From a virus: a stretch of DNA of 64,000 bases. This document shows, piece after piece, positions 9,155-41,844 of the stretch. Where the stretch lies: positions 1-64,000 of the IMG/VR virus record IMGVR_UViG_3300036864_000176. One strand, written 5' to 3'. Within the stretch, counting starts at the first letter, position 1, and every line of letters begins with the position of its first letter. The position numbers were made by a program, and so were the translations under genes. Under the pieces are notes generated by a model. That model did not search any database and had not been told where the DNA came from. It was given only the letters and a program-made list of their open reading frames with translations.

Positions 9155-9379
9155 ATGCCGACGACGACCATCTGCCGCCCGATCGCCCCCTCGACGTGGG
9201 AGTACCTCCGGCGGCTTGAGGAAATCGTCCGCCGCCCTGAAGCCTGGCGCACGGCCGCAGTAGAATCGCCGCGTGAAGCTGCTCGACCGGTTCGCGCTGA
9301 AGACGACCGCGGGGATGGTGTGGTTGCTCGTGCGCGAACTCCGCCGCCTCACCCACGCCATCGAGGTGGGAGTCGATAG
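9155..9379 (+). CDS. Doubtful small ORF (74 aa)
   Basis: ATG 9155 lies 2 nt after the hydrolase stop. The first 40 residues look natural (STWEYLRRLEEIVRRPEAW). The rest runs out of frame through the start of the gene at 9273 and is Arg/Pro-rich. It may be a real short gene with an uninformative tail, or none. Confidence 0.25.
   Translation: MPTTTICRPIAPSTWEYLRRLEEIVRRPEAWRTAAVESPREAARPVRAEDDRGDGVVARARTPPPHPRHRGGSR
9261..9266 (+). promoter_or_regulatory. Leaderless-type -10 (TAGAAT)
   Basis: TAGAAT ends exactly 6 nt before the GTG at 9273 and no SD is present. The geometry places the transcription start on the start codon. Confidence 0.55.
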
Positions 9380-9641
9380 TTTCCGAACCGTCCACGGCCA
9401 TCAGCCGGCCTTCGATGGGTTCAAACCGGTGTCTGAGTACGATGTAGACGCCGGTCGAACCGTTCCCCACTTTGAAAGCGACGCCCCGGACTACTTGCGG
9501 CTGGACATCATCGAGTGCCTGTGCCGCGAGCACCACATCCCGGTCGAGGACAGCACGAACCTGCTGGACATCGCCAGAGCTCAACACTGGATTGATGAGT
9601 CAGGGGATCTCGTCGTCATGCCGAAGGACTACCTGACCTAG
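9273..9641 (+). CDS. Hypothetical protein with N-terminal hydrophobic helix (122 aa)
   Basis: GTG 9273 gives MKLLDRFALKTTAGMVWLLV, a hydrophobic or amphipathic helix. A soluble domain with a short helix-turn pattern follows (YLRLDIIECLCREHHI, then STNLLDIARAQHWI). No family. It appears to have its own leaderless promoter. Its 3' end overlaps the converging HNH gene by 26 bp. Confidence 0.55.
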   Translation: MKLLDRFALKTTAGMVWLLVRELRRLTHAIEVGVDSFRTVHGHQPAFDGFKPVSEYDVDAGRTVPHFESDAPDYLRLDIIECLCREHHIPVEDSTNLLDIARAQHWIDESGDLVVMPKDYLT

Positions 9642-10122
9642 CCGCCTGCCGCCATCGTCGTTTGGCGGCGGCATCGATCGCTCGTTGAAGCTGGCGGCAT
9701 CGGGCGCAGAGTCGCACACGACGTACCGGTTTCCCTTGTGATCGGAACTCACAGATAACGATGTTGTCCGGTGTGAGCTGGTGCCCGTAGCGGCAGTGCG
9801 TACGGACTGTGGCCCGCCGATTCTGAATCTGCTCGCGCCGAGTTGCCCACCTGACGTTCCCCGGTTCGTAGTTCCCATTGTTGTTCGGCCAGCGATCCAA
9901 GGTGTGCTTGGCAGACGGCCGCTTGCCGACGTAAGCGAAAAACACAACAAAACTGGCATCCCATGCCGGCCACATCCGGACGCCGCGGCCACCGTAGTAC
10001 TTCCAGCTTGCGTTCTTCGGGTTGTTGCACCGAGACTTGGCGCAGATCCACGCCGCGTACTCAGGCGTTCGGCTCATCCCGTGGATCGGATGCGATTTGG
10101 CGGGTACAGTAAGCGGAGACAT
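9616..10122 (-). CDS. YGGRG-type HNH endonuclease
   Basis: ATG 10122 is preceded by AAAGGAG. The 168-residue protein carries the phage HNH signature SRTPEYAAWICAKSRCNNP, YYGGRGV, LDRWPNNNGNYEPGNVRW. This differs from the HNH_3 group found elsewhere in the window. A C-terminal C-x-R-Y-G-H / CARC zinc site follows. It lies on the opposite strand just before the packaging genes, as expected of a homing endonuclease. Confidence 0.85.
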   Translation of the reverse strand: MSPLTVPAKSHPIHGMSRTPEYAAWICAKSRCNNPKNASWKYYGGRGVRMWPAWDASFVVFFAYVGKRPSAKHTLDRWPNNNGNYEPGNVRWATRREQIQNRRATVRTHCRYGHQLTPDNIVICEFRSQGKPVRRVRLCARCRQLQRAIDAAAKRRWRQAARSGSPSA

Positions 10123-10190
10123 CGGAAGTTCACTCCTTTCGATGATCGAGGCGGGCCGCCACGGATTTGCACTCCGTCCGGCCTGCCGTA

Positions 10191-10196
10191 TTCTAT
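10191..10196 (+). promoter_or_regulatory. Leaderless-type -10 (TTCTAT)
   Basis: TTCTAT, inside TATTCTAT (10189-10196), ends 6 nt before ATG 10203. There is no SD. It is the first promoter candidate of the packaging operon. Confidence 0.5.
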
Positions 10197-10202
10197 CGCA
10201 CG

Positions 10203-11093
10203 ATGAACGAGCCGCTGCCGCCACCCTGCCCGCCGCCCCTGAAGTTCGTCCACGTCACGGCGAAGCGCTTCCCCACCGAACAAGCGCTGGCCGCCGGAGA
10301 GGCGCTGCTCAATCGGCGCCAGCTCGGGCAGCGCGGCAAGGACTGTCCGCAGCCGATCTCGCGCCCCAACGCCGTCGCCGCACTGACGCCGGCCGAAGAA
10401 GCGCAGTTCGCCGCCTTCGAAGTGGAACTCGGTGGCCGGCTCCAGCTCGCCGCCCTGCTCGCCGCCGCCGATCTGCCCGAGCGCGATCAGCGGCTCGCCG
10501 CGCTGCTGGTCGATCCGGCCAACGACGGCACCAGCCTCGCCAAGCTCTGTGCGTGGTCGCGGATCTCGCTCCGGCGCCTGCTCGATTTCGTCAAGGATGC
10601 GGCGCTCGTCAAGGGCCAGATCAAGGCGCTGGTCGCGGTGGGCGAGCGGCTGCCGGATGTGGCCGTCGGCTTGATGACTGACGCCATTCCCGGCGATCGG
10701 ACCTGCCCGGTCTGCAAAGGGCTGCGGCAGCTGCTCGACGATCCGACGCCGCAGGAGCCCTCACCTGTCCCGCGGATCTGCAAGACCTGCGACGGCACCG
10801 GGACCGTGCCGTATCATCCCGAGACTGAGCTGCGGAAGGTGGCGCTCCAGATCGGGAAGCTGCTCGACAAACCCGGCAACACGAACAATGTCTACGTCGC
10901 GCAGAAGTTCGGCGCCGGCACCGTGCAGCCCTTCAGCCAGGTGGTCGGCGAGCTGGACGGGGTACTCGACGCCCACCTGCGGGATCGGTTCGGCCGCCGC
11001 GTCACCCCGCCGATCGAAGGAGAAGCCACCGATGGATCGATCCAATCCGGCGACCGACCACCCGACGCCCCCGACGGACCCGACGCCGCCTGA
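10203..11093 (+). CDS. Putative small terminase or DNA-binding packaging protein (296 aa)
   Basis: Position directly before the large terminase, a helix-turn-helix-like stretch (GTSLAKLCAWSRISLRRLLD) near residues 107-126 and a helical C-terminus suit a small terminase. Residues 165-200 add a zinc finger (CPVCKGL and CKTCDGTGT), unusual for TerS. Small terminases bind the packaging site and feed DNA to the motor. No motif proves the assignment, so this is inferred mainly from gene order. Start ATG 10203 is set by the -10 at 6 nt. Confidence 0.5.
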   Translation: MNEPLPPPCPPPLKFVHVTAKRFPTEQALAAGEALLNRRQLGQRGKDCPQPISRPNAVAALTPAEEAQFAAFEVELGGRLQLAALLAAADLPERDQRLAALLVDPANDGTSLAKLCAWSRISLRRLLDFVKDAALVKGQIKALVAVGERLPDVAVGLMTDAIPGDRTCPVCKGLRQLLDDPTPQEPSPVPRICKTCDGTGTVPYHPETELRKVALQIGKLLDKPGNTNNVYVAQKFGAGTVQPFSQVVGELDGVLDAHLRDRFGRRVTPPIEGEATDGSIQSGDRPPDAPDGPDAA

Positions 11094-11493
11094 CGATCAC
11101 CGGCCGCGGCTGACGGCGGTCTACGACAACACCTGGCAGCGGCAGATTCGGCCGGGCACCTGTGTCGTGCACATCATTCCGGTCCACGATCTGCGGCCGC
11201 ACCGGGCCGGGGTCGATTGCGAGTGCCAGCCGCAGCCGATCGTGTCGCCGTTCGGCTACGCGCGTGGCCCGGTCCTGCTCCACAGTGCGTGGGACTGCCG
11301 CGAGCACCTGGCCCCGGACGAGCACGCCGAGCAGGTGACTGACGTGCTGATGCCGCACGCGGAGGAAGACGCGGCGGCCGACGACGACGCTAACGATGAG
11401 AATGATTTGAGTGGCGTCGATGACGACGACGATGACGACGATGACGAAGACGACTACTACGACGATCTCGATGATCTCGACGGCGACGACTGA
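11032..11493 (+). CDS. Hypothetical protein with extreme acidic tail (153 aa)
   Basis: ATG 11032 has AAGGAG upstream and overlaps the end of the previous gene by 62 bp. A central domain has cysteines and histidines (CVVHIIPVHDLRPH, CECQPQ, CREHLAP) that could bind zinc. The last 45 residues are almost all Asp/Glu with a few Tyr. Such tails can mimic DNA or shield a basic partner. Its place between the TerS candidate and TerL suggests a packaging accessory. Confidence 0.55.
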   Translation: MDRSNPATDHPTPPTDPTPPDDHRPRLTAVYDNTWQRQIRPGTCVVHIIPVHDLRPHRAGVDCECQPQPIVSPFGYARGPVLLHSAWDCREHLAPDEHAEQVTDVLMPHAEEDAAADDDANDENDLSGVDDDDDDDDDEDDYYDDLDDLDGDD

Positions 11494-11504
11494 TCCGACT
11501 ATCT

Positions 11505-11519
11505 AGGAGGAATAAGATT
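11505..11519 (+). promoter_or_regulatory. Perfect SD followed by AUU start codon
   Basis: AGGAGG (11505-11510) is spaced 6 nt from ATT (11517-11519). No ATG, GTG or TTG occurs in the terminase frame until 11886, although the translation is clearly protein-like from 11517. AUU initiation is known from infC and is discriminated against by IF3. Confidence 0.6.
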
Positions 11520-12782
11520 TATTCCCAGGCCGTCATCGATCACTCGCGCGCGAACCTCGAGTCAGCCTGGGCGCACGTCTTCCCGCAGGGACTGCTCGAC
11601 ATCCCGCCCGGCGACATTCCTGGCTGGCGCCGCCGCCTCAGTGACGTCTTCGACGAACAGGGCCGGCAGCTGCGCGGGCTCACCGCCGAGGAGCAGTACT
11701 TCGTCCACAGTGAGCAGGCCCGCTCGCGCATCGACTATCCGTACTGGGCCGAGCGCTACTCCACGATCAACCTGGAAGCCTCCACCATCGGGCCGCTCTA
11801 TCCGCTGTGGGAGTCGCAGCGGCTGATCCTCCGCGAGATCGGGCGCATTCAGCAGGAGCGGCTCGACACTGACTATCCCGACGGTGTGCTGGTCAACATC
11901 CTCAAGGCGCGGCAGCTCGGTGCCTCGACGCTCTGTTCGTCCATCCTCTGCCACCGCACGACGACGCGCGCGCACACCTTCGGCCTGCTCGCCAGTGACG
12001 TCCCCGACAACTCGGCGTTCCTGTACGACATGTACGAGCGCCAGCTCGATCACCTGCCCTGGTGGATGCTGCCCAGTGTTGTGGAGCGGGTGAAGAACGA
12101 CGAGATCGTGTTCGACACCGACAGTCGGCTCTTCGTCAGCGCGAGCAAGTCGACGCGCGGCGCCGACAAGCTGCGGCGCGACTCGGTCGACGGCAAGAAA
12201 GGGCAGCTCGGGCGCGGCCGCACGATCGCGGTGTTCCACCTCTCCGAGATTGCGACGTGGACGAACCCGCGGCAGATCGACACGTCGTTCATGCCGACGG
12301 TGCCGTACTCGCCCGTCGTCTGCGGCGCGAAGGAATCGACCGCGCAGGGCTGGGGGCCGAACAACTGGTGGTATCAAGACTGGCAACAAGCGAAGTCTGG
12401 AAAAGGAAGATTCTCCGCGGTATTTATTCCGTGGTACGCAGAGCAGAGCAAGTACCGACTGCCCGCACCGCTGTCATGGTCACCGTCACCTGATACGCTG
12501 GCACACGCCCGCCGCGCTGAAGAGTACGGTCCCCGGTGGATGCATCGTTCCGTTCAACTCACCCGGGACCAGTTGTACTTCTACGAACAGGCACGCGCGG
12601 CGGCGGAAGCCAAAGACATGCTGGCCGAGTTCCTTCAAGAAATGCCTGCCGATGATGAAGAGGCATTCCAAATGAGCGGTCGATCGATCTTCACGGTCGG
12701 TGTTATCGAGCGGATAAAGAACCAAGCCAGACCGTTGTGTGGAATGGTCGAGATACGACCTAATCGTCAAATGGGTGTCTGA
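11517..12782 (+). CDS. terL: Large terminase, ATPase half (split gene)
   Basis: From the ATT start the product is 421 residues. A Walker A-like LKARQLGAST lies near residue 130 and a Walker B-like VFHLSEIATW near residue 243. The ATPase domain ends with PADDEEAFQMSGRSIF, the usual junction to the nuclease domain. The nuclease domain is missing here and lies separately at 13716-14684. The last residues (EIRPNRQMGV) run into the 3' end of an antisense HNH gene, overlapping by 16 bp, so the original junction was disrupted. Starting at GTG 11886 would remove over 120 residues ahead of Walker A. This enzyme powers DNA packaging at the portal. Confidence 0.8.
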   Translation: MYSQAVIDHSRANLESAWAHVFPQGLLDIPPGDIPGWRRRLSDVFDEQGRQLRGLTAEEQYFVHSEQARSRIDYPYWAERYSTINLEASTIGPLYPLWESQRLILREIGRIQQERLDTDYPDGVLVNILKARQLGASTLCSSILCHRTTTRAHTFGLLASDVPDNSAFLYDMYERQLDHLPWWMLPSVVERVKNDEIVFDTDSRLFVSASKSTRGADKLRRDSVDGKKGQLGRGRTIAVFHLSEIATWTNPRQIDTSFMPTVPYSPVVCGAKESTAQGWGPNNWWYQDWQQAKSGKGRFSAVFIPWYAEQSKYRLPAPLSWSPSPDTLAHARRAEEYGPRWMHRSVQLTRDQLYFYEQARAAAEAKDMLAEFLQEMPADDEEAFQMSGRSIFTVGVIERIKNQARPLCGMVEIRPNRQMGV

Positions 12783-13210
12783 CGCTGCCGTGCTCTCCGC
12801 TCGCGGACGCACGCACGACACCAGCGACGACCCTTCCAGTCGCGCCATGTGTTCTCGGTCGTGTACTCGTGTCCGCGTGGGCAATGTGTGACGGCCGCGT
12901 TTCGGGCCGCAATGCCCTTCCCACGAAGTTGGTTGATCTGGTGAGTCACGACCTCAAGATGTGCCGGATTCACGCAGCGTGGGATGCGGCACAAGTGATC
13001 GAGTTCTTTGTCGGCTGGAATGTGACCGACGAGAAATTCGTACGCGATGCGGTGGGCGTAGACAGCTGGTCGTTTCCGGAAATAGAACTGACCGTAGCCG
13101 TTCTTCAGACTCGCGGTCCACAACCAGCACGGTCCCAGCTCACGCCGGTACGCAGGCGGAGGGCCGACGACGACTTTCGACCAGAAGCGAATAGACTCTG
13201 GAACAGCCAT
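12767..13210 (-). CDS. HNH_3 homing endonuclease inserted in the terminase
   Basis: Start ATG 13210 (MAVPESIRFW) is preferred over GTG 13267. The core shows CWLWTASLKNGYGQF, AHRIAYEF, LDHLCRIPRCVNPAHLEVV and a C-terminal HCPRGH...CRAC zinc site, typical of small HNH_3 proteins. It is antisense and sits exactly where terL is broken between ATPase and nuclease domains, which implicates it in the split. Confidence 0.85.
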   Translation of the reverse strand: MAVPESIRFWSKVVVGPPPAYRRELGPCWLWTASLKNGYGQFYFRKRPAVYAHRIAYEFLVGHIPADKELDHLCRIPRCVNPAHLEVVTHQINQLRGKGIAARNAAVTHCPRGHEYTTENTWRDWKGRRWCRACVRERRARQRQTPI

Positions 13211-13306
13211 GCGAGCAGCGCCTCGATCGCTGTGAACGTGGTAAGGCACGCAGCGGTGTTTCCGCACTGCTGCGCGCCGCTATCCTACCATCGTGCGACC
13301 GCCGTG

Positions 13307-13312
13307 TAGAAT
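13307..13312 (+). promoter_or_regulatory. Promoter TAGAAT with structured leader
   Basis: TAGAAT with six following bases puts transcription at about 13319. That is the first base of GGGAGCC, which pairs with GGCTCCC before the gene at 13382. Confidence 0.45.
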
Positions 13313-13318
13313 CTCCCT

Positions 13319-13378
13319 GGGAGCCTATCCATTGCCGCGGACGCGTGGTTCACTGGGTGAACAAACCCGGGGGCTCCC
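13319..13378 (+). ncRNA. Structured 5' leader
   Basis: GGGAGCC (13319-13325) pairs with GGCTCCC (13372-13378). Inside, GTTCAC (13348-13353) pairs with GTGAAC (13357-13362) across a 3-nt loop. The internal hairpin also contains the GGTGAACAAA element related to the repeats at 288-428. Confidence 0.45.
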
Positions 13379-13381
13379 GTA

Positions 13382-13507
13382 ATGTTGGACGACCCTGGCC
13401 GCGATCGGATGCTGGCGCTGTGGGACGCCGTGCTCTGGCTGGCGATCGGCTTCCTCGTCGGCGGTGCGTTCGTCGGCTGGTACGGGGTCGCGGCGCCGTG
13501 TAACTGA
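13382..13507 (+). CDS. Single-span membrane protein, holin-like (41 aa)
   Basis: ATG 13382 has GGGGG about 10 nt upstream. Residues 11-36 form one transmembrane helix (VLWLAIGFLVGGAFVGWYGV). The N-terminus is charged. It is located inside the split terminase and could be a holin-like or head-associated peptide; the size alone does not decide. Confidence 0.5.
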   Translation: MLDDPGRDRMLALWDAVLWLAIGFLVGGAFVGWYGVAAPCN

Positions 13508-13510
13508 CCC

Positions 13511-13723
13511 ATGGTGAACCGCCGCGCCTTTCTCCGCTCGCTCCTGGCGCTGCCGATCGCGGCGACCTTCGATGTCGAGAAGCTGCTCTGGGTACCGGGG
13601 CAGATGGTCGTCGTCCCACCGATGCCGACGGTGATCGCCGTTCGCTTCGCTCATATTTCCTACGAGGACATCCAGCGCGCGTACATGGAATGCGTGCTCG
13701 GCCGGCTGCCGTACGATGGCTGA
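13511..13723 (+). CDS. Small protein with Tat-like signal (70 aa)
   Basis: The N-terminus MVNRRAFLRSLLALPIAATF has the NRRAFLRS pattern and hydrophobic stretch of a twin-arginine signal peptide. The short remainder (MPTVIAVRFAHISYEDIQRA) shows no cofactor motif. Its stop overlaps the start of the terminase nuclease gene. A phage Tat substrate would be unusual; the motif may be fortuitous. Confidence 0.5.
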   Translation: MVNRRAFLRSLLALPIAATFDVEKLLWVPGQMVVVPPMPTVIAVRFAHISYEDIQRAYMECVLGRLPYDG

Positions 13724-14684
13724 CTTCGTTTCCTTCCCACGAGCCGACAATCTCCTCTCGCCCAACCAGCAGCTGCTCGACGCCGCCCTCGCCGAAGCCC
13801 CCTACCGCGTCGCGCCCGGCTACGGGATGCGCTCGCTCAAGCCCGCCGACTGGAAGGCGCTCCAAGCCGAGCCGGACGACGCCGGCCTCTTCGATCGGCT
13901 CCAGGTCTACGAACCGCCGCGGAAGGGGTTCCTCTACGTCGTGCCGGTGGACGTCAGCAGCGGCATCGGGCTCGACCGCTCGGTCATCGACGTCATCCGG
14001 GTCGCCACGATCCGCGAGCCGCATGAGCAGGTGGCGCAGTTCATCAGCGACCAGATCGATCCGTCCGACCTCGCTTACTTCGTCGACGCCATCGGACGGC
14101 TCTACAGCGGCCGGGACGACCTCCCCGCCGAGGTTGCCGTCGAATGTGTCCCCGGCCCGGGCATGACGACGCAGGACACGCTCTTCAAGCGGCTCGGCTA
14201 TCCGAACCTTTACATCTGGCAGGTGCTCGACAGCCGCGATCCGGCGAAAGCGTTCACGACGAAACTCGGCTGGTGGACGACCCGGCAGTCGCGGCCGATC
14301 ATCCTGCAGGGGCTGCATCACGCGCTGAAGACGGTCGATCCCCACACCGGCGTGCCCGACTTCCGGCTCAACTCCCCGATCACGCGGCAGGAGCTGCGGA
14401 CCTTCATCAGCCCCGGTCCAGTCTGGATGGCGGAGGCCGCCGAAGGCGCGTTCGACGACTGCGTGATGGCGGCCGCGATCGGCCTCTTCGTCGCTGAGCG
14501 CAAGCAGGAGACAACCCGCGAGACCATCCACGAAACGCGGCGGCGGCTCTCCGAGGAGTCGGCGCGGCTCACCGAACGGCGCCGCCAGGACAAGCACCCC
14601 ATCACCGCGCAGACAACTGACGTAACTTTTGCTGAGCTTTATGGCTTGGCGGATCCGTACGACGCAGATCCACACATGATATAA
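13716..14684 (+). CDS. terL: Large terminase, nuclease half (split gene)
   Basis: The 322-residue protein has the RNase H-like terminase nuclease layout. The first catalytic strand VVPVDVSSGIGLDRSVIDV (Asp near residue 75) resembles the D-x-S/A-x-G motif. A middle region (NLYIWQVLDSRDPAKAFTTK) precedes the Gly/Trp motif (LGWWTT), and the third acidic motif is EGAFDDCVMAAAIG. No ATPase motif is present; that domain is encoded at 11517-12782. ATG 13716 overlaps the upstream stop. The two polypeptides presumably assemble into one working motor. Confidence 0.8.
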   Translation: MADFVSFPRADNLLSPNQQLLDAALAEAPYRVAPGYGMRSLKPADWKALQAEPDDAGLFDRLQVYEPPRKGFLYVVPVDVSSGIGLDRSVIDVIRVATIREPHEQVAQFISDQIDPSDLAYFVDAIGRLYSGRDDLPAEVAVECVPGPGMTTQDTLFKRLGYPNLYIWQVLDSRDPAKAFTTKLGWWTTRQSRPIILQGLHHALKTVDPHTGVPDFRLNSPITRQELRTFISPGPVWMAEAAEGAFDDCVMAAAIGLFVAERKQETTRETIHETRRRLSEESARLTERRRQDKHPITAQTTDVTFAELYGLADPYDADPHMI

Positions 14685-14748
14685 ACCGGTGCGGATCGGC
14701 GCGTGTTCAGCACGCCGACCCGCTGGAACATCGAAAGGGGGACTTCCG

Positions 14749-15625: not shown

Positions 15626-15633
15626 GAGGACCG

Positions 15634-16320: not shown

Positions 16321-16342
16321 CCTGAGCCGAGGTGAGCGCCTG

Positions 16343-16477: not shown

Positions 16478-16911
16478 TGGATGCGGCGACGGCGACGGAT
16501 CCGATGGAAGGCTTAAAGCCAGGGAGAATCGTCTACTACGTCTTCAGCCAGCAGACGGCGGACGAAGTGAACCGGCGGCGGACGACCAGCAACTCGATCG
16601 CCGAGCGGATGGAAACCGAGATCGAGCCTGTGTTCGGCGATCGTCTGCCCGCCTGGCCGGTTGGCGCACAGGCGCACATCGGCAATCCGGTCTCGCCTGG
16701 AGACATCTATCCGGCAATGGTCGTGCGCGTGTTCGAGGAGGCGGCGTTCAGTCGATCGATCAACCTCAAGGTGCTGCTCGACGGCAGCGACGACTTCTGG
16801 GCGGTCTCTGTGCCCTACGACGAGGCGAAGCGGCCGGCGACCTGGCACTGGATGTTTGAAGGACAAAATACGCGGTACCAGCCGGATCGGGTGGAGAAGT
16901 CGAATGCCTAG
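16477..16911 (+). CDS. Hypothetical protein (144 aa)
   Basis: ATG 16477 is coupled to the preceding micro-gene. A beta-barrel-like protein: GRIVYYVFSQQ, ...GDIYPAMVVRVF, SINLKVLLDGSDDFWAVSVP. Such sequences occur in phage head operons without known role. Its 3' end overlaps the next gene by 8 bp. Confidence 0.55.
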   Translation: MDAATATDPMEGLKPGRIVYYVFSQQTADEVNRRRTTSNSIAERMETEIEPVFGDRLPAWPVGAQAHIGNPVSPGDIYPAMVVRVFEEAAFSRSINLKVLLDGSDDFWAVSVPYDEAKRPATWHWMFEGQNTRYQPDRVEKSNA

Positions 16912-17383
16912 ACAGCGCTTTCTCTGCCCGCGCTGCGGCTTCGTCGGCGAAATTTTCTATCCGCCGCCGGTCTACGATGCCGATCACAACCGGCTCTCGG
17001 TCTATCCCGCCTGCCCGGAGTGCCGATCCGTGGACTACCTCGCACAGCAGACGCTCGTCCCCTACCCGGATCGGCTGCAGCACGATCTCCTCACCGGGGG
17101 CACCGGCCTGGTGGTCGAGAACGAACGCGGCCAGGACGTGACCATCTCCTCGCTCGGCGAGATCCGGACCATCGAACGGGAATCGCTCCGGCGCGCGAGC
17201 AACGGCGACGGCTCCCCGATGGTCTTCCGTGGCTTCAGCCAGAACCGCAGCAACCGCGGCCAGAACACGCTGCGGGGGTCGGAGTTCGAGAAGAACCGGT
17301 CGGTCCGGATCGAGCGGCCGACGACGGTGCGCGGGTTGCCGATCAGGCCGCGCGTCATCAGTGAGTCGGAGGCACCGAAATGA
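16904..17383 (+). CDS. Zinc-ribbon protein upstream of the portal (159 aa)
   Basis: The N-terminal half has CPRCGF (residue 8) and CPECRS (residue 39) forming a zinc ribbon. The C-terminal half is basic and disordered (RGFSQNRSNRGQNTLRG). It may bind nucleic acid or a capsid component. Start ATG 16904 overlaps the previous gene; the stop overlaps the following HNH gene. Confidence 0.6.
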   Translation: MPRQRFLCPRCGFVGEIFYPPPVYDADHNRLSVYPACPECRSVDYLAQQTLVPYPDRLQHDLLTGGTGLVVENERGQDVTISSLGEIRTIERESLRRASNGDGSPMVFRGFSQNRSNRGQNTLRGSEFEKNRSVRIERPTTVRGLPIRPRVISESEAPK

Positions 17384-17733
17384 CACGTCCTATCGCTACG
17401 TCTGAGGAACTTCGTGCGCGGTTGCTTGATTACATCGAACCGGAACCGATGTCGGGCTGCTGGCTCTGGACGGCGTCACTCGGACCGAAAGGCTACGGCC
17501 AGATCAGCGCGTTCATCGACGGGTGCCGCCGCCTCTGGCGCGCACACCGGCTCGCATGGCGGCTGTTTCGCGGTACGATTCCCACCGATCGCTACGTCCT
17601 GCACAGTTGCGACACGCCCTGCTGCATCAACCCCGATCATCTCTGGCTCGGCACGCAGGCCGACAACCTCGCGGACAACCGACGGAAGGGCCGACCCATG
17701 GGCCGCTACGCTCACCGGCAGACAGCCGCATAG
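17380..17733 (+). CDS. Compact HNH_3 homing endonuclease
   Basis: A 117-residue HNH_3 protein: CWLWTASLGPKGYGQI, AHRLAWRL, VLHSCDTPCCINPDHLWLG, QADNLADNRRKGR. It lacks the C-terminal zinc knuckle of its relatives here. It sits immediately upstream of the portal gene. Confidence 0.85.
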   Translation: MTRPIATSEELRARLLDYIEPEPMSGCWLWTASLGPKGYGQISAFIDGCRRLWRAHRLAWRLFRGTIPTDRYVLHSCDTPCCINPDHLWLGTQADNLADNRRKGRPMGRYAHRQTAA

Positions 17734-17736
17734 AAT
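17731..17736 (+). promoter_or_regulatory. Leaderless-type -10 of the portal gene (TAGAAT)
   Basis: TAGAAT ends 6 nt before ATG 17743 and no SD is present, although the portal must be made in quantity. Confidence 0.6.
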
Positions 17737-17742
17737 CCCGCA

Positions 17743-19944
17743 ATGGCGCCTGCAATCGTCCAGTCAGTCAACCGCGCTGAGAACCCACTCCTGAAGGCAA
17801 CCGACAGCTTCCTCAAACCCGGGCAGACGACGGGGCCGGTTCTCGATTGGATCAAAGAGGCCGTTGCGGAGGGTGAGGCGTTCATGCAGGCGGACCCTGC
17901 ATGGGACACCGTGGATCGAAATCAAGACTACATCATGGGGCGGCAGCGGGCGCTCCAGATCACCGAGCTCAGGCCCGCCTACGTCAGTCACGCCGTGCTC
18001 AACGAGACCAAGCGCACGCGCCGCCGCCACGTCTCGGCGCTCACCGATCTCAAACCCGTCTACGCCTACCGTACGCCGAATCCGAACTTCCAGAAGCAGG
18101 GCCTCCTCCTCAATCAGCTGACCGTCGTCCACTGGATCAATACGTTCGCCGACCTCGCCCTCGCTGACGCCGCCGACTATGCCTTTGCCTGCGGCAGCGG
18201 CGACATCGTCTGCGAGTACGATCCGTACTACGGACCGATGGGCGACATCGTCATGTCCGCGCGCGATCCGCGCGACACGATTCCGATCCGGCCGTCGCGC
18301 GATGGGTCGCTTCAAAATTGGTTCGGCATGATCATCCGCGAAGCGCATTCGATCAATGTGCTGCGCCAGATGTACCCGAATCACCCGGCACTCCTGCAGC
18401 AGTCGGCGTCACCGTGGGGCGGCGGGGTCTTCACCAAGTGGAAGCGCGCGCTCAACCGCATCATGGGGTCGGGCTCGACCTCGACGCTCGCCGGCCTGTC
18501 GAAGGTGCACTCCGGATCGTCGCAGCTCACCGGCAGCGAGATCATCCTCTACCGCTGCTACTTCAACGACGCCTCGATCAACACGACCAGCCACACCGTG
18601 CTGATGGGCCCGCCCGGCGCGGCGTGGTCATATCTCGTTCCGCCCGGCGGCCGTCTTTATCCGCGCAAGCGCCTGGTCGTCGCCACCGAAGCGGGCATCC
18701 TCTGGGACGGGCCGAACACCTACTGGCACGGCATGTTCCCGACGGCGCGGCTGCAGCTCGATCACGTCCCGTGGTCCTTCTTCGGCGTGCCGATTGTCGA
18801 TTCCAACCTGCCGATTCAGGACGCGATCAACGACCTGCTGAACTACATGCTGGACGACATCCGGCAGAAGAAGCGGCCGCCGCTGGCCGGCAACGCGCGC
18901 GTCAGCGAGCCGAAGCTGAAACAGTTCGATCCGCTCAAGCCGAACGCGCGCATCCGCACCGAAGAGCAGGTCGGCACCGGCCTGCAGGTCGTGGAGATTC
19001 CGGATCTCCCCGCCTACACGCTCGAACTGTGGCAAGCGCTCCGCACGGCGTTTCACGAAGCAACCGGTGACTCCACACTCGACGCGCTGCAGGCCGCCGC
19101 CGCCAACCAATCCTTCGATCCCGAGCAGATCGAAGCCTTTATGAACGCCCTCAGCCCGGAGATGAAGCTCGAGGGCCGCCGGGTGGAGGTCTGCCTGCGC
19201 GAGCTGGCGGAGATGCAGAAGGCGAACATCTTCCAGTTCTACGACACGAAGAAGCGCATGGCGATTCTCGGCGATGCGGGGACGACGCTCGCCGATTTTG
19301 ACTTCGACCCCGGCAGTCTCATTCCGGCGATGGTGCCGGGGCAGCCTGGCTATCATCAGGAGCTCGACGCCAACCGTGATCAGAAGGATCGCGCGCAGTT
19401 CTTTCTCCAGCTGTTCACCTTCTACGTCACGCCCAATTCGCTGCTCGCGCTCAACGCGAAGTCGGAGCAGTTGAAGTACGTCCAGCTCGCACGCGCGGGC
19501 CTGTGCGATCGGTGGACGCTCTGGGAGAAGCTGGAGATTCCCAACGCCGGATCGCCGCCGAAGATGCTGCTGCCACTCGATGAATCCGGCGAAGCGGGCC
19601 AGGCCGATCCCCAGCTGATCGCCGAAGTCGCTTCTGGCCTGCACCCGGACATGAGCCTCGATCCCAACACCGGCGAGCTGCTGGTACTCCGCGCACCGAC
19701 GACGATCACCGAGCGGCTGCTGGCCGAGCAGGAGCTGTTCATGGGCGGCATGACCGTCGGCCCGGCCGGATCGAGTGCCGGGCAGGGCCAGCCGACCAGC
19801 GGCGGCGGCCCCGGCGGCGGCGGCATGGGCGGGGCGCGGCAGGGGGCCGGGCGAAAGGCGACCGCGCAGAAGTCGCCGTCGATCGAGCGGCAGCCGATCC
19901 CCGGCGGCGGCGAGCGGATCAAGATGGTGGAGAGCCGACGCTGA
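17743..19944 (+). CDS. Portal protein
   Basis: At 733 residues this fits the portal of podovirus-like phages, the dodecameric ring through which DNA passes. Supporting features are the position after terL, the beta-hairpin and wing region (ARDPRDTIPIRPSRDGSLQN), and the long stem-region helices. A conserved patch (GVPIVDSNLPIQDAINDLLN) precedes the clip/stem helices, and a Gly-rich basic C-terminal tail (about residues 680-733) ends the protein. Identification rests on overall resemblance plus gene order, not on a single catalytic motif. Confidence 0.8.
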   Translation: MAPAIVQSVNRAENPLLKATDSFLKPGQTTGPVLDWIKEAVAEGEAFMQADPAWDTVDRNQDYIMGRQRALQITELRPAYVSHAVLNETKRTRRRHVSALTDLKPVYAYRTPNPNFQKQGLLLNQLTVVHWINTFADLALADAADYAFACGSGDIVCEYDPYYGPMGDIVMSARDPRDTIPIRPSRDGSLQNWFGMIIREAHSINVLRQMYPNHPALLQQSASPWGGGVFTKWKRALNRIMGSGSTSTLAGLSKVHSGSSQLTGSEIILYRCYFNDASINTTSHTVLMGPPGAAWSYLVPPGGRLYPRKRLVVATEAGILWDGPNTYWHGMFPTARLQLDHVPWSFFGVPIVDSNLPIQDAINDLLNYMLDDIRQKKRPPLAGNARVSEPKLKQFDPLKPNARIRTEEQVGTGLQVVEIPDLPAYTLELWQALRTAFHEATGDSTLDALQAAAANQSFDPEQIEAFMNALSPEMKLEGRRVEVCLRELAEMQKANIFQFYDTKKRMAILGDAGTTLADFDFDPGSLIPAMVPGQPGYHQELDANRDQKDRAQFFLQLFTFYVTPNSLLALNAKSEQLKYVQLARAGLCDRWTLWEKLEIPNAGSPPKMLLPLDESGEAGQADPQLIAEVASGLHPDMSLDPNTGELLVLRAPTTITERLLAEQELFMGGMTVGPAGSSAGQGQPTSGGGPGGGGMGGARQGAGRKATAQKSPSIERQPIPGGGERIKMVESRR

Positions 19945-27412: not shown

Positions 27413-27418
27413 TAGGAT
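27413..27418 (+). promoter_or_regulatory. Leaderless-type -10 (TAGGAT)
   Basis: TAGGAT ends 6 nt before ATG 27425. No SD is seen. Confidence 0.45.
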
Positions 27419-27424: not shown

Positions 27425-28744
27425 ATGAGTGAGGCACTCGGCAACCGGGCGGTGGGATCGACCATCCGGAAGTATTTCCGGACGACGAGCCAGGCATCGC
27501 TGCCGATCACCCTGGTCGGCGGGGCGGTCCGCGTCTACAAGGACGGCGGGGTCATCGAATCGGCGGCTGGTGTCACGCTCACGACCGACTTCGACGGCAC
27601 GGTCGGCCTACACCTCGTCACCATCGACACCACGACCGATGCGGTGTTCTACGCGGTCGGGTCCAGTTACGCGGTGGTCCTCACCGCAGGCACCGTGGAC
27701 GGCCTCTCGGTGGCCGGCGTGCCGCTGGCCAGCTTCTCGCTCATCACCGCGGCAGCTGCCGCCGTCGCGATTGCCGGGGTTACTCCGCTTCCCGGCCAGG
27801 TCACGTTCGAGTCGGTCTGGCGCATGGTCCTCGGCCATGCGCCGATTGCCGGCGCCGGGCTCGCGCGCGAATGGACGCAGTGGGCCTATAGCGAGTTCTG
27901 CCTCGCGCGTCGATCCTGGGCCCACCTGCGGGTCCAGAGCGGCCTCTCCATCACCGCCTCACGGAGCGGTACCTGTGCGGTCGTGCAGGGCCAGGCCAGC
28001 GCCGCCTCTGGCACACTCGTCTTTGTCGCCGGGGACGTCGGCCGCACCTTCCGGGTCGGCACCGGCGCCTACTACACGATTCTCAGCGTCACGACCGGGG
28101 TGGCCGCCCTCGATCGCGCCTTCGCTGAGACGACGGATGCGGCCGCGGCCGGCACCGTCTTTGACGGCTATGCCACCCTACCGGCCGACTTCGCGCGCTT
28201 TCTCGCGGTGATCGATCCGTCGATGCGGTGGCGCATTCGGTTCGACGTCAGCAGCGACTGGCTGAACCGGCTGGATCCCGTCCGGCAATCCGCAACCGGC
28301 TCGCCGCGGATCCTGGCCAACGCCACGTTCTCGCCCGTTGCCGCCACGCTCGGCCAGCCCCGCTATGAGTGGTACCAGACCTCGGCGAGCGCGCGGTCGT
28401 TCCCGATGTGGTACCTCCGCAAGCCGGAGCTGCTGACCGACGATCAGGTGCTCATCGGCCCGCTCGGCGATCGCAAGGACATCCTGGTCGAGGGGGCGCT
28501 CAGCCGGGCGGCGCTCTGGCCGGGCCTCGAGGGGCGGCGCAATCCCTACTTCAACCTGCCGCTGGCTCAGGTTCACGACACGAAGTTCCGCGATAAGATT
28601 TCCGCGTCCTACGTCGCCGACGAAGAGCTGTACTGGGAAGGGCTGCCGGTGGCCGAGATGGGCTACGCGCAGTTCCCGTTCGACTCGGCGTGGATGCAGC
28701 AGCACGACATTCCGGCGATGGGTGACCTGGCCAGCTGGTACTGA
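27425..28744 (+). CDS. Virion protein: fibre-like N-domain fused to connector-like C-domain (439 aa)
   Basis: Residues 10-100 form an Ig-like beta domain (ASLPITLVGGAVRVYKDGGV) related in style to the preceding fibre-like protein. From about residue 120 the sequence (SVWRMVLGHAPIAGAGLARE, WTQWAYSEFCLARRSW) resembles head-tail adaptor proteins, ending in a region with AEMGYAQFPFDSAWMQQHDI. A neck or head-completion role is inferred. Confidence 0.5.
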   Translation: MSEALGNRAVGSTIRKYFRTTSQASLPITLVGGAVRVYKDGGVIESAAGVTLTTDFDGTVGLHLVTIDTTTDAVFYAVGSSYAVVLTAGTVDGLSVAGVPLASFSLITAAAAAVAIAGVTPLPGQVTFESVWRMVLGHAPIAGAGLAREWTQWAYSEFCLARRSWAHLRVQSGLSITASRSGTCAVVQGQASAASGTLVFVAGDVGRTFRVGTGAYYTILSVTTGVAALDRAFAETTDAAAAGTVFDGYATLPADFARFLAVIDPSMRWRIRFDVSSDWLNRLDPVRQSATGSPRILANATFSPVAATLGQPRYEWYQTSASARSFPMWYLRKPELLTDDQVLIGPLGDRKDILVEGALSRAALWPGLEGRRNPYFNLPLAQVHDTKFRDKISASYVADEELYWEGLPVAEMGYAQFPFDSAWMQQHDIPAMGDLASWY

Positions 28745-33492: not shown

Positions 33493-33498
33493 TACAAT
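33493..33498 (+). promoter_or_regulatory. Leaderless-type -10 (TACAAT)
   Basis: TACAAT ends 7 nt before ATG 33506, with no SD. Confidence 0.55.
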
Positions 33499-35627: not shown

Positions 35628-35642
35628 CGGGACAACCGGAAT

Positions 35643-35648
35643 TACAAT
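35643..35648 (+). promoter_or_regulatory. Leaderless-type -10 (TACAAT)
   Basis: TACAAT ends 6 nt before ATG 35655, with no SD. Confidence 0.55.
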
Positions 35649-35654
35649 CCGCCG

Positions 35655-36523: not shown

Positions 36524-36642
36524 TGGACGCGTGGTTCGTCGCGCACGGCTTCGATCCGGTCAGCTTCGCGCTCGGAATGGGCACGGCGAGCCTGATCTGG
36601 CTCAGTGTCATCTCGTTCCTGCAGTGGTATCTCAACCGGTGA
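36523..36642 (+). CDS. Membrane micropeptide (39 aa)
   Basis: ATG 36523 overlaps the upstream stop. The peptide FALGMGTASLIWLSVISFLQ spans a membrane once and ends WYLNR. Its stop overlaps the SD (GGTGAGG) of the large nozzle gene. Confidence 0.45.
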   Translation: MDAWFVAHGFDPVSFALGMGTASLIWLSVISFLQWYLNR

Positions 36643-36649
36643 GGCGCTG

Positions 36650-39600
36650 ATGCCCCAATCTCCGCACCCCGTCCGTCCCGCCGCCGAGTCCCCCGCTGCC
36701 GATCACTTGCCCTACGAATCGCTGCCGCTCCCGATTGGGAATGCGGGCGGCATCGATCTCATCTCCCTGCTCGATCAAATCCCCTCGGGCGCGTGCTCGC
36801 GGCTGACCAACGCCGACGCCACGCCAGGCAGCGGCTTCTCCACCCGGCCGGGCCTCACCACTGCGACGACGCATAACGTCAACCAGGCGATTCACTCGCT
36901 CGTGCGCGTCAACGATCCGTCCTCCGATCCGGCACTCAACTACTACCTGACCGGGATGGGCACGATCCTGCGGTGGAATCCGTCCGGCATCGGCGCGGTC
37001 ACCGTCGCGACGGGCTTCTCCGGCAACCCGCTCACCTTTGCCGTCACGGCCAACGAGTTCGGCCACCAGCAGACGATCTACGTCGGCGACCGCACCAAGA
37101 TGGTGCAGGTCAATGTCACGACTGGGGCGGTGAAGCCGATTGGCCTGCCCGCTCCAGCGGCACCGGCGAGTGTGGTTGTCGCCGATCCGCTCAAGACCAC
37201 GATTGCGGCGTTCACCGCCGCCGACCAGACCGCCGCCGCAAACTGGTTCCTCACGCTAGCCGTGACACAGGGGGCCGGCGTGCCGACGGTCGAGGACATC
37301 GTCGGCCCGTCCGGGGTTGGCGGCATCCTCGTCGTCGTCCATCCCGGCACGGTCCAGGGCGCGTATCAGTCCTTTGTCTGCTGTCCGTTCCGGCTGCCGG
37401 ATGCGTCGTGGACGACGCGCGACTTCTCGGTGGTGGGTCCGGCCGGACCGACGCAGCGGCTGGCGACTGACGACGATCTCATCCACCTGTGGATGAAGTT
37501 CAACCGGCCGGATCACGTCAGTGAGATTCGGATCTACTTTCAGTGCTCACCGCTCGATAGCCCGCTGCCCGATCCGTTTCCAGTGCCGGGTACCTCGTCG
37601 GAGTCAAACGTCGCCGCCTACATGCGCGCATTCCGGCCGAGTGACTACACCGCCTTCATCGCAGGCGACCAAACCGCCCTAGAAGCCGCTGGTGGGATCC
37701 GCAGCAACGCGCTGCTTGACGGTGTAACGGAGCCAGCCCCGCCGCCGGGAGAGCCGCCGCCGCCGTCCGACACGCCGTCGCAGGTCGTCACCCCCGCCGG
37801 CTCGCGGTCGTGGGCCGAGTTCGGCCGCATCGGCGTCCCGCTCCGGCGCAGCGACTTCATGAAGATCGGCACGGCCGGCCAGGACGGCACCGACTGGTCA
37901 ACGATCTCGGCCCTATGGGTCGTCGTCAGCACGATCGACAACTTCGATGTCGACGTGGCGCTCGACGACTGCTACCTGACCGGCGGCTACGATCCCGACA
38001 CCAGCGAGCCGGATGCGACACCCTACGATTACCGGCTGGTCAACTACGACACGACCAGCGGCGCGCGCAGCAATCCCTCGCCCGTGATGACCGAGACGTT
38101 CGACGTCGCCCGGCAATCCGTCACGATCACCCCGACGGCCGCCTACGGCGATGCGAACGTCCGGCAGGAGGCGTACCGACGCGGTGGCAGCAACGGGGGC
38201 GACTGGTTCTTCGTCGCGGCCAACAGCGCCGACGGCGGCGCGATTCTCGACACCGCGAGCGACACGCTCGCCGCGGCGAGCCCGGCACTGCTCACCGACA
38301 ACGATCAGCCCGTCACGTCGGTCACCGCGGCGGGCGCGGCGATCTACGGCCAGTCGGTGCGCGCGATCTTCGGACCGATTGAAGGGTTCCTCTTCGCCTG
38401 CGGCGACCCGCACCGGTCGGGCACGCTCTACTGGTCGAAGCGCTACGAGCCCGATCACTGGCCCGCCGTCAATCACCTGGAGACCTGTCCGGCGACCGAC
38501 GAGCTGATGAATGGGGCGCTCTATGGCGCGCAGGGGTTCGTCTTCAGCCGCGAGCGGCTCTACTCGATCCAGATCGACCTCACCGGCGGCAACGTCGTCA
38601 CCCTGCCGACCGATTGCGACAAGGGCATCGTCGGGTATCTCGCGTTCACGACCGGGCTAGGCGGCATCTACGGCGTCAGTCGGCACGACGTCTTCGTGAC
38701 GCAGGGCGGCGGCCCGCCCAAGGTGCTGTCGAAGCTGATCGAGCCGCTCTTCAACGGCGAGACCGTCAACGGGTATCTGCCGATCGACTTCCACTACCTG
38801 ACCGCGATCCGGCTGGCGATCTACGGCGACGATCTCTGGTTCGGCTTCCAGGACACCGGCGGCAGCCGGGTGTGGTGGGTGTTCTCGCTCATCTACGACC
38901 GCTGGCGCTTCGTCTCGTTCGCGCAGCCGGCGTGGCTGGTCTACCCCGAGCCCGGCGACAACACGAAGCGGCAGCTCATTGTTTGTGGCACTGGTGTCGT
39001 CTACGAGCACCGCGGCGTGACCGATGCCAGCCAGCCGATCGCGGTGAACATCCGCACCAATGCCGACGTCTTCGGCAAGCCGCGCGAGGAGAAGCTGCTC
39101 GGCGACGTCGCCATCCGCGCGCAGATGGGCGGGGCCAGTCTCACGGTGCAGGCCCGGCTCAATGCCGACACCGTCGCCAACGCCGCGATCACCGTCGCCG
39201 GATCGACCGCCAACGATCGCTACCTCTTCGATCTATTCGGAACCACGCCGCAGCACGCCGACAGTCTGTCGCTCAATCTCTCCTGGGCGACTGACGCCGG
39301 CACGACCGAGCTGCCCTATATCGACCGCATCGCGATCGACACGGCGATCCAGCCCGAAGTCACGATGAACCGGGCGACGACGTGGCAGCCGGTGAACGAC
39401 GTCGGCGAAGGCTACCTGATGGGGTGCTCGATCGACTGCGACACCGGCGGCAGCAACCGGACGATCCTCGTCGAAGGACTCCTCAGCGGGCAGCCGGTCG
39501 CCGTCGCGACGCTCACCGTCAACAGCAATCACGGCCGCCGCCTGTGGTTCTCCTGGCCCGCGCAGCATGTCGACATGGTCCGCTTACGGCCGACCGGCAC

Positions 39601-40642
39601 CTGCGCGCCGTGGATGCTGTTCGGTCAAGCCTGGATCTGCACGCCGGAGCCGCCACGCATCGCGGTGTGGGACTCGGTGTTCGAGAATCAGTGGGACCAG
39701 TACTGCACCGGGCTCGATCTCGAGTGCGACACGTTCGGCCAGACCAAGACGATTCAGGTGCTCGTCGACGGGATCGTCGTCAAGACCGACACGATTACGC
39801 ACACCGGCCGCCTGGTGCACCACGTCACGATCCCGTGGACGCGCGGGCACGTCTTCCGCTTCGTCGCCACCGACAGCCACGTCGGGCTGCTCTACGCGCA
39901 CCGCTGGCAGGTCGAGCCGGAGCCGAGCGAGCAGACCAACTGGAACCAGAACTACACGCTCGCCGGCACGATGGCCGACAAGTGGCTCAAGGGTCTCCTG
40001 CTCGAGTGCGACACCTTCGGCCAGGACAAGACGGTCACGGTCGAAGTCGATCGCGTCATCGTCCACACCGAGCTGGTGAACACAACCAACCGCACCGTCG
40101 TGCACGTCGCTTTCCCGCAGGTGCGGGGCCGGGTGTTCCGCGTCTATCCGACCGACGATCATCCCGGCCGGTTGTATTCATCAGCCTGGATCTTCGACGA
40201 GGAGCCGCTGCAGCTCACCCGCTACGAGACGCAGGAACAGCCCGACGGCATTCAGGATTTCCACATCCCGATTGACGGCCAGATCGCGATCCGCTCCACG
40301 ACCGACGTGACGCTCACGGTGACCGGCTACGGCCAGAACGGCGTGGCGCTGGGCGGCGCGCACGTCTATACGCTGCCGTCGACGGCGGGTGCGAAGGCAA
40401 TGCTGTCGGCGCACACGTTCCTGACGCCGCAGAAGGGGCTGCTGTTCAAGACGGTCTTCGAAGCGTCGGCCGGCTTCTGGCTTTACTCGGAGGAGTCATG
40501 GCTGACGATGCAGCCGCTCGGCGGCGGCCGGCCGGTGCGGGTGGCGATCTTCGGTGACGACGATCTCGATCCGGCACGCGAGATGCGCGATGCCTCACTG
40601 ACGGCGACGCGCGCGGGCGGCGCTATCAGATCAGTCGCCTGA
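36650..40642 (+). CDS. Large tail nozzle-like protein with three C-terminal repeats (1330 aa)
   Basis: ATG 36650 has GGTGAGG upstream. Size and location after the neck genes match the tubular B/nozzle class of podoviruses. The first 650 or so residues have blade-like beta motifs (QQTIYVGDRTKMVQVNVTTG, ALYGAQGFVFSRERLYSIQI, LRLAIYGDD-type), interrupted by a Pro-rich linker near residue 363. Three roughly 95-residue repeats follow at about 905-1000, 1003-1092 and 1093-1190, each with an E/D-C-D-T-F/G-G motif such as LECDTFGQTKTIQVLVDG. A final beta domain ends the protein. Confidence 0.65.
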   Translation: MPQSPHPVRPAAESPAADHLPYESLPLPIGNAGGIDLISLLDQIPSGACSRLTNADATPGSGFSTRPGLTTATTHNVNQAIHSLVRVNDPSSDPALNYYLTGMGTILRWNPSGIGAVTVATGFSGNPLTFAVTANEFGHQQTIYVGDRTKMVQVNVTTGAVKPIGLPAPAAPASVVVADPLKTTIAAFTAADQTAAANWFLTLAVTQGAGVPTVEDIVGPSGVGGILVVVHPGTVQGAYQSFVCCPFRLPDASWTTRDFSVVGPAGPTQRLATDDDLIHLWMKFNRPDHVSEIRIYFQCSPLDSPLPDPFPVPGTSSESNVAAYMRAFRPSDYTAFIAGDQTALEAAGGIRSNALLDGVTEPAPPPGEPPPPSDTPSQVVTPAGSRSWAEFGRIGVPLRRSDFMKIGTAGQDGTDWSTISALWVVVSTIDNFDVDVALDDCYLTGGYDPDTSEPDATPYDYRLVNYDTTSGARSNPSPVMTETFDVARQSVTITPTAAYGDANVRQEAYRRGGSNGGDWFFVAANSADGGAILDTASDTLAAASPALLTDNDQPVTSVTAAGAAIYGQSVRAIFGPIEGFLFACGDPHRSGTLYWSKRYEPDHWPAVNHLETCPATDELMNGALYGAQGFVFSRERLYSIQIDLTGGNVVTLPTDCDKGIVGYLAFTTGLGGIYGVSRHDVFVTQGGGPPKVLSKLIEPLFNGETVNGYLPIDFHYLTAIRLAIYGDDLWFGFQDTGGSRVWWVFSLIYDRWRFVSFAQPAWLVYPEPGDNTKRQLIVCGTGVVYEHRGVTDASQPIAVNIRTNADVFGKPREEKLLGDVAIRAQMGGASLTVQARLNADTVANAAITVAGSTANDRYLFDLFGTTPQHADSLSLNLSWATDAGTTELPYIDRIAIDTAIQPEVTMNRATTWQPVNDVGEGYLMGCSIDCDTGGSNRTILVEGLLSGQPVAVATLTVNSNHGRRLWFSWPAQHVDMVRLRPTGTCAPWMLFGQAWICTPEPPRIAVWDSVFENQWDQYCTGLDLECDTFGQTKTIQVLVDGIVVKTDTITHTGRLVHHVTIPWTRGHVFRFVATDSHVGLLYAHRWQVEPEPSEQTNWNQNYTLAGTMADKWLKGLLLECDTFGQDKTVTVEVDRVIVHTELVNTTNRTVVHVAFPQVRGRVFRVYPTDDHPGRLYSSAWIFDEEPLQLTRYETQEQPDGIQDFHIPIDGQIAIRSTTDVTLTVTGYGQNGVALGGAHVYTLPSTAGAKAMLSAHTFLTPQKGLLFKTVFEASAGFWLYSEESWLTMQPLGGGRPVRVAIFGDDDLDPAREMRDASLTATRAGGAIRSVA

Positions 40643-40664
40643 CGTCAAAGGACACGTATATAAG

Positions 40665-40670
40665 TAGAAG
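40665..40670 (+). promoter_or_regulatory. Leaderless-type -10 candidate (TAGAAG)
   Basis: TAGAAG ends 6 nt before GTG 40677. TATATA lies just upstream (40657-40662). A/T content is unusually high here. Confidence 0.4.
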
Positions 40671-40676
40671 TAATCT

Positions 40677-41366
40677 GTGGCGGGCTACAACTACCTCACC
40701 CAGATCCGCGACCGCGCAACCCGGGACACCCTCAAGGGCTTGACCGACCGGGTGAACGCACTCGAACGATCTGCCGACACGATCGGCACCGTCACCGAAC
40801 CGCTCACCGACGATCTCAACGCCGGTAGTCACCGTCTCACGCGCGTCGCGCCGCCGACGGCCGACACCGACGCGGTCACCCTCCGCTTTCTCAAGAGCTA
40901 TGTCGACGCCCGCCTCTCGGCCGCGGGCCTGATCGATGCGGCCGGGAACGCCGTGCGTCCGACGGACACCGACAGTGGCCAGACCGCGGCGGGCGTCGCA
41001 GCCGCCGGGGCCGACGGACACCCGACTGTCTCCGGACTCACCGCCTACAACGCCGGCCTCATCATCGGCGGGGTCGGGCATGAGTTCCCGGCGCTGGTCG
41101 CCCCCGCCGTCGACGAAGCGACGTTCGATGCGAACCGGCTCGAGCTGCTGCGCCGCACGATCTGGCACCTGATTCAATTCGGCTTCACCGCCGGACGCCA
41201 GCAGAACCCGACCGGGATCCTCTCGACCGACAAGATCGCGCTCATCGAAGACGGGCAGCTGCGCGCGTTCGACTGCTACACCGGCACGTTCACGGCGGGC
41301 CTCACGGTTCAGGCGCTGCAGGTCTATCCGGCGGTCCTGGTAGCCGACAGCGGGATCGCGGACTAG
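40677..41366 (+). CDS. Tail fibre adaptor with coiled-coil N-terminus (229 aa)
   Basis: GTG 40677 encodes AGYNYLTQIRDRATRDTLKG followed by LTDRVNALERSA, a short trimeric coiled coil typical of fibre roots. The repeated motif NAGSHRLTRVAPPTADTDAV is a fibre-shaft signature (the N.G..I.N...P....DAV pattern). The C-terminal domain is globular. It probably attaches the spike to the tail. Confidence 0.6.
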   Translation: MAGYNYLTQIRDRATRDTLKGLTDRVNALERSADTIGTVTEPLTDDLNAGSHRLTRVAPPTADTDAVTLRFLKSYVDARLSAAGLIDAAGNAVRPTDTDSGQTAAGVAAAGADGHPTVSGLTAYNAGLIIGGVGHEFPALVAPAVDEATFDANRLELLRRTIWHLIQFGFTAGRQQNPTGILSTDKIALIEDGQLRAFDCYTGTFTAGLTVQALQVYPAVLVADSGIAD

Positions 41367-41369
41367 AAT
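41364..41369 (+). promoter_or_regulatory. Leaderless-type -10 (TAGAAT)
   Basis: TAGAAT ends 7 nt before ATG 41377, with no SD. Confidence 0.55.
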
Positions 41370-41376
41370 CACCCCG

Positions 41377-41844
41377 ATGCTGGACAAGTACCTCGCCCGG
41401 ATGCTCCCGCCGGATGAATGGCATCGGCTCGGCATCGCGCCGGAGCTGCTGCCGCGCGATCCCGATCGCGCCGTCATCATGGTGGTCGAGGACGAGGCCG
41501 GTGGGATCATCGCGCGGTGGATGGCGTACGACACGACCGTGCTCGAGGGGCTGTTCGTTGCACCCGCGCATCGGCATCATCCCGGCGTCGCGGGGCGGCT
41601 GCTGCAGGCGATGACCGCGGAGCTCGTCGGTCGCAACGTCGCGATGGCGATCACGCTCATCGAGGATCCCGAGGTCATGCAGCTCGCCGAACGGCACGGG
41701 CTCTACAGCCTGCCGGGGCAGCTCTGGGTGCTCGATCTGCGGCAGCTGTTGGCAGCAGGCGCTGCTCCACCAGACCCCCAGCTCAAGGACAACGCAGAGG
41801 AGATGTGGCAGGCACTGAAGCCGAAGGCGGAACAGGAAAGGTAG
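41377..41844 (+). CDS. GNAT-like acetyltransferase fold protein (155 aa)
   Basis: The central block LEGLFVAPAHRHHPGVAGRL followed by LQAMTAELVGRNVAMAITLI has the beta4-alpha3 acetyl-CoA loop pattern of GNAT enzymes (x-x-G-x-A, weakly), then LAERHGLYSLPGQLW. Phage GNAT-like proteins sit beside tail and ejection genes in several podoviruses. Whether it is active or structural is unknown. Confidence 0.55.
   Translation: MLDKYLARMLPPDEWHRLGIAPELLPRDPDRAVIMVVEDEAGGIIARWMAYDTTVLEGLFVAPAHRHHPGVAGRLLQAMTAELVGRNVAMAITLIEDPEVMQLAERHGLYSLPGQLWVLDLRQLLAAGAAPPDPQLKDNAEEMWQALKPKAEQER

Follow-up and report, generated by a model that had tools for sequence, protein, structure and literature searches.

Putative leaderless promoters with a host-type -10 box precede several structural genes of an uncultivated, probably acidobacterial phage

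The uncultivated virus record IMGVR_UViG_3300036864_000176 of IMG/VR comprises 68,485 bases, and bases 1-64000 were analysed here, referred to throughout as the window. Several genes of its rightward, structural block are preceded at a short distance by a hexamer resembling a bacterial -10 promoter box, and seem to begin transcription right on the start codon. A search of a phage collection returned no near DNA match to the window. Seven of these hexamers had been picked out in a preliminary description of the sequence, which read them as leaderless-type promoters of genes lacking a Shine-Dalgarno (SD) sequence, saw no consistent -35 element and considered an unusual sigma factor possible. Hexamer and start codon were found in place at all seven genes, and six of the hexamers are exact matches to TA[GC][AG]AT, ending 6 or 7 nucleotides (nt) before the start.

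All of the boxes lie on the plus strand. The first, an exact TAGAAT (9261..9266), stands 6 nt before GTG 9273. At the portal gene the same hexamer (17731..17736) ends 6 nt before ATG 17743, a start established by homologues that align at 88% identity from the first residue (MAPA); the TAG of this box also terminates the upstream HNH endonuclease gene. TAGGAT (27413..27418) lies 6 nt before ATG 27425; since the AGGA inside this hexamer falls at SD distance, it provides a weak SD alternative, and the description of the starts as SD-less does not hold cleanly for this one. TACAAT is found 7 nt before ATG 33506 (33493..33498), whose gene has no homologue in the relatives and whose start is therefore provisional, and again 6 nt before ATG 35655 (35643..35648). 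The latter gene encodes an SU10-type adaptor protein (Pfam SU10_adaptor, E 1.3e-7), and homologues aligning from residue 6 support its start. The last TAGAAT (41364..41369), 7 nt before ATG 41377, takes its TAG from the stop of gene 40677-41366; the product of gene 41377 has weak GNAT acetyltransferase matches.

At ATG 10203 a box is present, but not the one first proposed. The original candidate, TTCTAT at 6 nt (10191-10196), is not a TANNNT hexamer and was dropped; TATTCT (10189..10194), 8 nt before the start, was taken instead and scores 6.8 on the host-trained matrix described below, clearly above the rest. Its spacer is acceptable because 8 nt lies inside the host range of 6-10 nt. This start is not fixed by homology, the alignment beginning at residue 14, and the orthologue in the sister phage G002/C38 has no box at its start, where the sequence is SD-like. 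Just upstream of the 10203 box, at 10145-10190, a hairpin-like sequence (GGCGGGCC-GCC-ACGGATTTGCACTCCGT-CC-GGCCTGCC) was read by eye; its inner stem-loop resembles an anticodon arm, and ARAGORN calls no tRNA. The preliminary description had flagged TAGAAG (40665..40670), 6 nt before GTG 40677, as a weaker eighth candidate, and it proved marginal: its matrix score of 2.95 equals that of an SD-led leftward start, which makes it indistinguishable from background. Within the well-supported gene 40677-41366 ARAGORN reports an antisense tRNA-Leu(gag) (40764-40847, minus strand), possibly a false call.

Phage gene calling relied on a simple coding-potential script written for this analysis; since the caller ignores upstream signals, the choice of starts is not biased toward the motif. 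For the 52 confidently called starts that made up the motif test set, degenerate hexamers of ten mask types were scanned at every position within about 22 nt upstream and compared with 200 position-randomised controls, each upstream region being rotated. TANNAT at a spacer of 6 or 7 nt was the best of all patterns and positions tested and was matched in 0 of the 200 controls; when SD-less starts only were used, the best control motif was as good in 1 of 200. The local upstream frequency predicts 0.5 occurrences of TANNNT at 6 or 7 nt, and 5 were seen (Poisson P 1.7e-4). Leaving aside TACGAT, whose occurrences are mainly intragenic Tyr-Asp codons, six of the nine plus-strand TA[GC][AG]AT sites in the window sit 6-7 nt before a start. 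The same caller applied to phages G006-G011, portal relatives of 40% identity and 68-71% GC, gave no TANNNT enrichment, which argues that the enrichment is not a caller artefact. One of the six box starts in the test set scores as SD-containing, namely 27425 through the AGGA of its TAGGAT. The three bases immediately preceding the boxes are CAG, CCG, GCA, CCG, CGC, AAT and GAC, with TGn in none. A candidate -35 sequence, AGCCG, noticed by eye 17-18 nt upstream of three boxes, was rejected, as host sites have no such column.

When the pattern was counted over the whole window ignoring gene starts, its excess was not significant (5 against 2.1); the signal thus emerges only when sites are placed with respect to actual gene starts. 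This start-blind count and the small numbers involved are in keeping with chance, that is, with a few TA-rich hexamers noticed post hoc. Chance is already disfavoured, however, by the family-wise test (0/200), by a host-trained matrix built without the phage (0/500, see below) and by the recurrence of boxes at orthologous starts, and we regard it as barely credible.

Among isolate genomes, a related portal protein was found only in two Tunturiibacter (Acidobacteriota) phages, at 26% identity. When 84,980 bacterial and archaeal genomes were scanned for the portal, a single match, 88% identical, was obtained, on a contig binned in an Acidobacteria gp7 metagenome-assembled genome (MAG). This 34.5-kb contig matches the window in both its rightward and leftward blocks, and is therefore phage over most or all of its length. 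The tetranucleotide correlation between window and MAG, 0.84, is compatible with a host relationship and not specific to it. The phage host is thus probably an acidobacterium, probable rather than proven because binning can be wrong. The preliminary description had pointed to Deinococcus-Thermus and Actinobacteria as the phyla in which such promoters are established; the sequence links lead instead to Acidobacteriota, for which a published survey gives 13.3% leaderless genes (Zheng et al. 2011, PMC3160421).

The promoter grammar of the probable host was examined in 800 kb of MAG G031 (547 genes) with the pipeline used for the phage. TANNNT occurs there 28, 12, 19, 23 and 15 times at spacers of 6, 7, 8, 9 and 10 nt, against 0.77 expected per position, so that about one in six genes (~17%) has the hexamer 6-10 nt before its start. 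An SD sequence accompanies 3 of the 40 genes with a box at 6 or 7 nt, against 154 of 547 genes overall. Among the 97 MAG sites TAGAAT is the commonest hexamer, with A favoured at positions 4 and 5, and the columns from 32 to 1 nt upstream of the box hold no -35-like or TGn consensus, in line with the absence of a consistent -35 described for the phage. Across 18 genomes of the MAG's family, TAGAAT-N6-ATG is found 319 times and the reversed pattern 11 times. Boxes precede 41 of 166 divergent genes (25%) and 14 of 136 genes in tight same-strand pairs (10%), whereas SD sequences follow the opposite trend (22% and 43%, respectively); the box therefore behaves as a promoter and not as a ribosome signal. 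A matrix derived from the MAG sites only picks the seven noted phage starts and no others above 3 bits; at a 6-bit threshold 7 phage starts were observed against 0.8 expected, with 0 of 500 controls as good. If the acidobacterial link holds, the host's own genes would thus appear to use the same box as the phage.

These data bear on whether the boxes might be phage-specific late promoters, with the host polymerase redirected to -10-only sites in the structural block by an alternative sigma factor or by a remodelling phage protein, as by P23-45 gp39 in Thermus. The lack of a visible -35 would fit this, as would the confinement of boxes to the rightward block: across three phages 11 of 67 rightward starts have one, as against 0 of 39 leftward starts (Fisher P 0.0065, orthologues being counted repeatedly). 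The bacterium, however, has the identical box, spacing and lack of a -35 for its own genes, so an unusual sigma factor, as entertained in the preliminary description, is not needed. The phage boxes also lack TGn, unlike those of P23-45, and no sigma or RNA polymerase family was found among the proteins scanned (PHROGs, Pfam), which represent part of the gene set and many of which had no match. We consider a dedicated late-promoter factor improbable.

Conservation of the boxes across sister phages is partial. TAGACT precedes the orthologues of gene 9273 (40-42% protein identity, alignments starting at residue 1), with a spacer of 6 nt in G001 and of 9 nt in G002/C38. The gene after the terminase gene has TAGACT at 7 nt in G001, where the TAG is the terminase stop, and TAAACT at 7 nt in G002/C38, where an insertion is found downstream of the terminase stop and the box, now separate from the stop, is retained. 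A third gene of G002/C38 has TAGAAT at 9 nt. Beyond these, G005 has 2 box hits, and TANNNT boxes stand at 7 of 52 starts in G020 and 4 of 24 in G024, both major capsid relatives of ~33-35% identity; in these two lower-GC genomes more of the boxes take TATAAT-like forms. Viral contigs yielded no relatives of the gene products of 845, 439 and 250 aa, which places the boxes at 27425, 33506, 35655 and 41377 outside the close-orthologue comparison. In the genome of Tunturi_2 (PP885685), an isolated acidobacterial phage, TAGACT stands 6 nt before an HNH gene (58542) and TAGAAT 7 nt before a lone minus-strand gene (23486).

The retained box of G002/C38 is also relevant to the view that the hexamers are not promoters at all, but stop codons and A/T-rich starts at sites of termination-reinitiation or SD-independent 30S initiation. 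Such a view draws on the AGGA within TAGGAT at 27425 and on the upstream stops at 17743 and 41377, which lie 9-10 nt before the start and coincide with the TAG of the box. Yet the four other boxes are not stop codons, G002/C38 keeps its box though the terminase stop has moved away, and the bacterial boxes favour divergent over operon-internal genes. A purely translational origin is accordingly very unlikely in our judgement.

We therefore favour the reading that the boxes are ordinary -10 boxes of the host primary sigma factor that make leaderless mRNAs, to which we assign a probability of about 0.82. The leaderless TANNNT-type promoters of the preliminary description are strongly supported as predictions by the enrichment in the phage and by the grammar of the host. 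Under this reading, a host RNA polymerase of sigma-A type would melt the DNA at the box, and the spacer of 6-7 nt would put the first transcribed base on the start codon or one base before it. Each mRNA would then begin with AUG or GUG and be translated leaderless, without Shine-Dalgarno pairing, which is probably how the presumed acidobacterial host normally starts those of its genes that do not rely on SD pairing. The rightward structural genes would use this mode at about the host's rate, and the leftward genes would depend on Shine-Dalgarno sequences or on some other kind of non-leaderless start. Two of the boxes are built into the stop codon of the preceding gene, one of them at the end of the HNH gene.

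Several points weigh against this reading. The gene starts were assigned by a simple caller, and the predicted transcription starts are read from the sequence. In the phage taken by itself, having a box and lacking an SD are not significantly associated (P 0.2). The box shares its TAG with the stop codon of the preceding gene at 17743 and 41377; these two boxes are weaker independent evidence because their TAG is already explained, and the AAT that follows the stop still needs explaining. The host link consists of one binned contig, possibly misbinned, and a distant isolate match of 26% identity, and the Tunturi_2 genome shows no significant box enrichment. Finally, the portal box is absent in 34 portal relatives examined, even those 88% identical.

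This absence argues against an ancient regulatory element at the portal gene; the box there is private to the phage of the window. The HNH endonuclease gene (17380..17733, plus strand; Pfam HNH_3, E 2.4e-10) separates the portal gene from the gene at 16904. It starts with an ATGA overlap with the preceding gene and ends with the TAG of TAGAATCCCGCAATG, so that its stop codon supplies the first three bases of the portal TAGAAT. The junction reads ...GGCACCGAAATGACACG..HNH..CATAGAATCCCGCAATGGCG in the window and ...GGCACCGAAAGCGTAGATGGCC in G002. Since the same junction holds the HNH gene in the window, another small open reading frame (ORF) in G001 and no inserted gene in G002, we take it to be a gene-insertion spot. 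In the sister phages the portal ATG follows directly after the previous stop or after a different small gene. The HNH insertion cuts the portal gene off from its former place in the operon, and would thereby leave it with a start signal of its own. A small oddity of the system is that TAG stops also open a -10 box, among them the stop at the HNH insertion before the portal.

More speculatively, the phage programme could be split by translation mode, with leftward replication genes SD-led and early and rightward structural genes leaderless and late, such that a shift of host ribosomes toward leaderless initiation would in itself bring about the change from early to late expression. In that scheme, inserted HNH genes would carry a stop-embedded -10 box that restarts the displaced gene and lowers the cost of insertion. 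We offer this as a conjecture, and think it rather unlikely.

Two other regions of the window drew attention. An additional TAGAAT (13307..13312, plus strand) has no start codon near it, and its membership of the set is tentative. Exactly 6 nt after it begins a stable 60-nt hairpin (13319-13378, GGGAGCC...GGCTCCC; -34.3 kcal/mol, z -3.7) without a match in Rfam, followed by ATG 13382, which opens a 41-codon hydrophobic ORF; positions 13307-13384 may represent a structured leader or else a small RNA beginning at the predicted transcription start. On the minus strand, one long ORF (53118-56303) has matches to a uracil-DNA glycosylase domain (residues 65-213) and to family A DNA polymerase (residues 582-839), and the caller favours a shorter start at 56009.

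The matrix built from bacterial genes predicts transcription starts and can help to correct start codons in a group of abundant soil bacteria and their phages, and these results suggest that promoter grammar may help to indicate the hosts of uncultivated phages. A paper of 2025 (PMC11924767) reports the first virus isolates from Acidobacteriota, and its text does not contain the words promoter, leaderless, Shine-Dalgarno or transcription. The closest phage precedents come from Thermus: middle and late mRNAs of phiYS40 are mostly leaderless (reviewed in PMC3594737), and P23-45 uses extended -10 middle/late promoters and gp39 (reviewed in PMC7403470). The present phage likewise appears to express lytic-type genes from -10-only sites, with putative leaderless signals on structural and not on replication genes; it differs in that TGn is lacking, no gp39-like factor was identified and the signal is apparently the host's own. 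In Deinococcus-Thermus the same box has been validated experimentally (2025, PMC12340547), with a -10 box placed a few bp upstream of the ORF, a spacing requirement and, as reported there, production of leaderless mRNA; the present case is sequence-based and likely concerns another phylum. The leaderless TA-led bacterial genes of Zheng et al. 2011 (PMC3160421) also resemble the genes described here, with TANNNT ~12 bp before the start, an SD mostly lacking and a high-GC form with variable middle bases, whereas here the carrier is a phage, the MAG spacers spread over 6-10 nt and A is preferred at positions 4 and 5. The signal is of a known type, to which a phage group is newly added.

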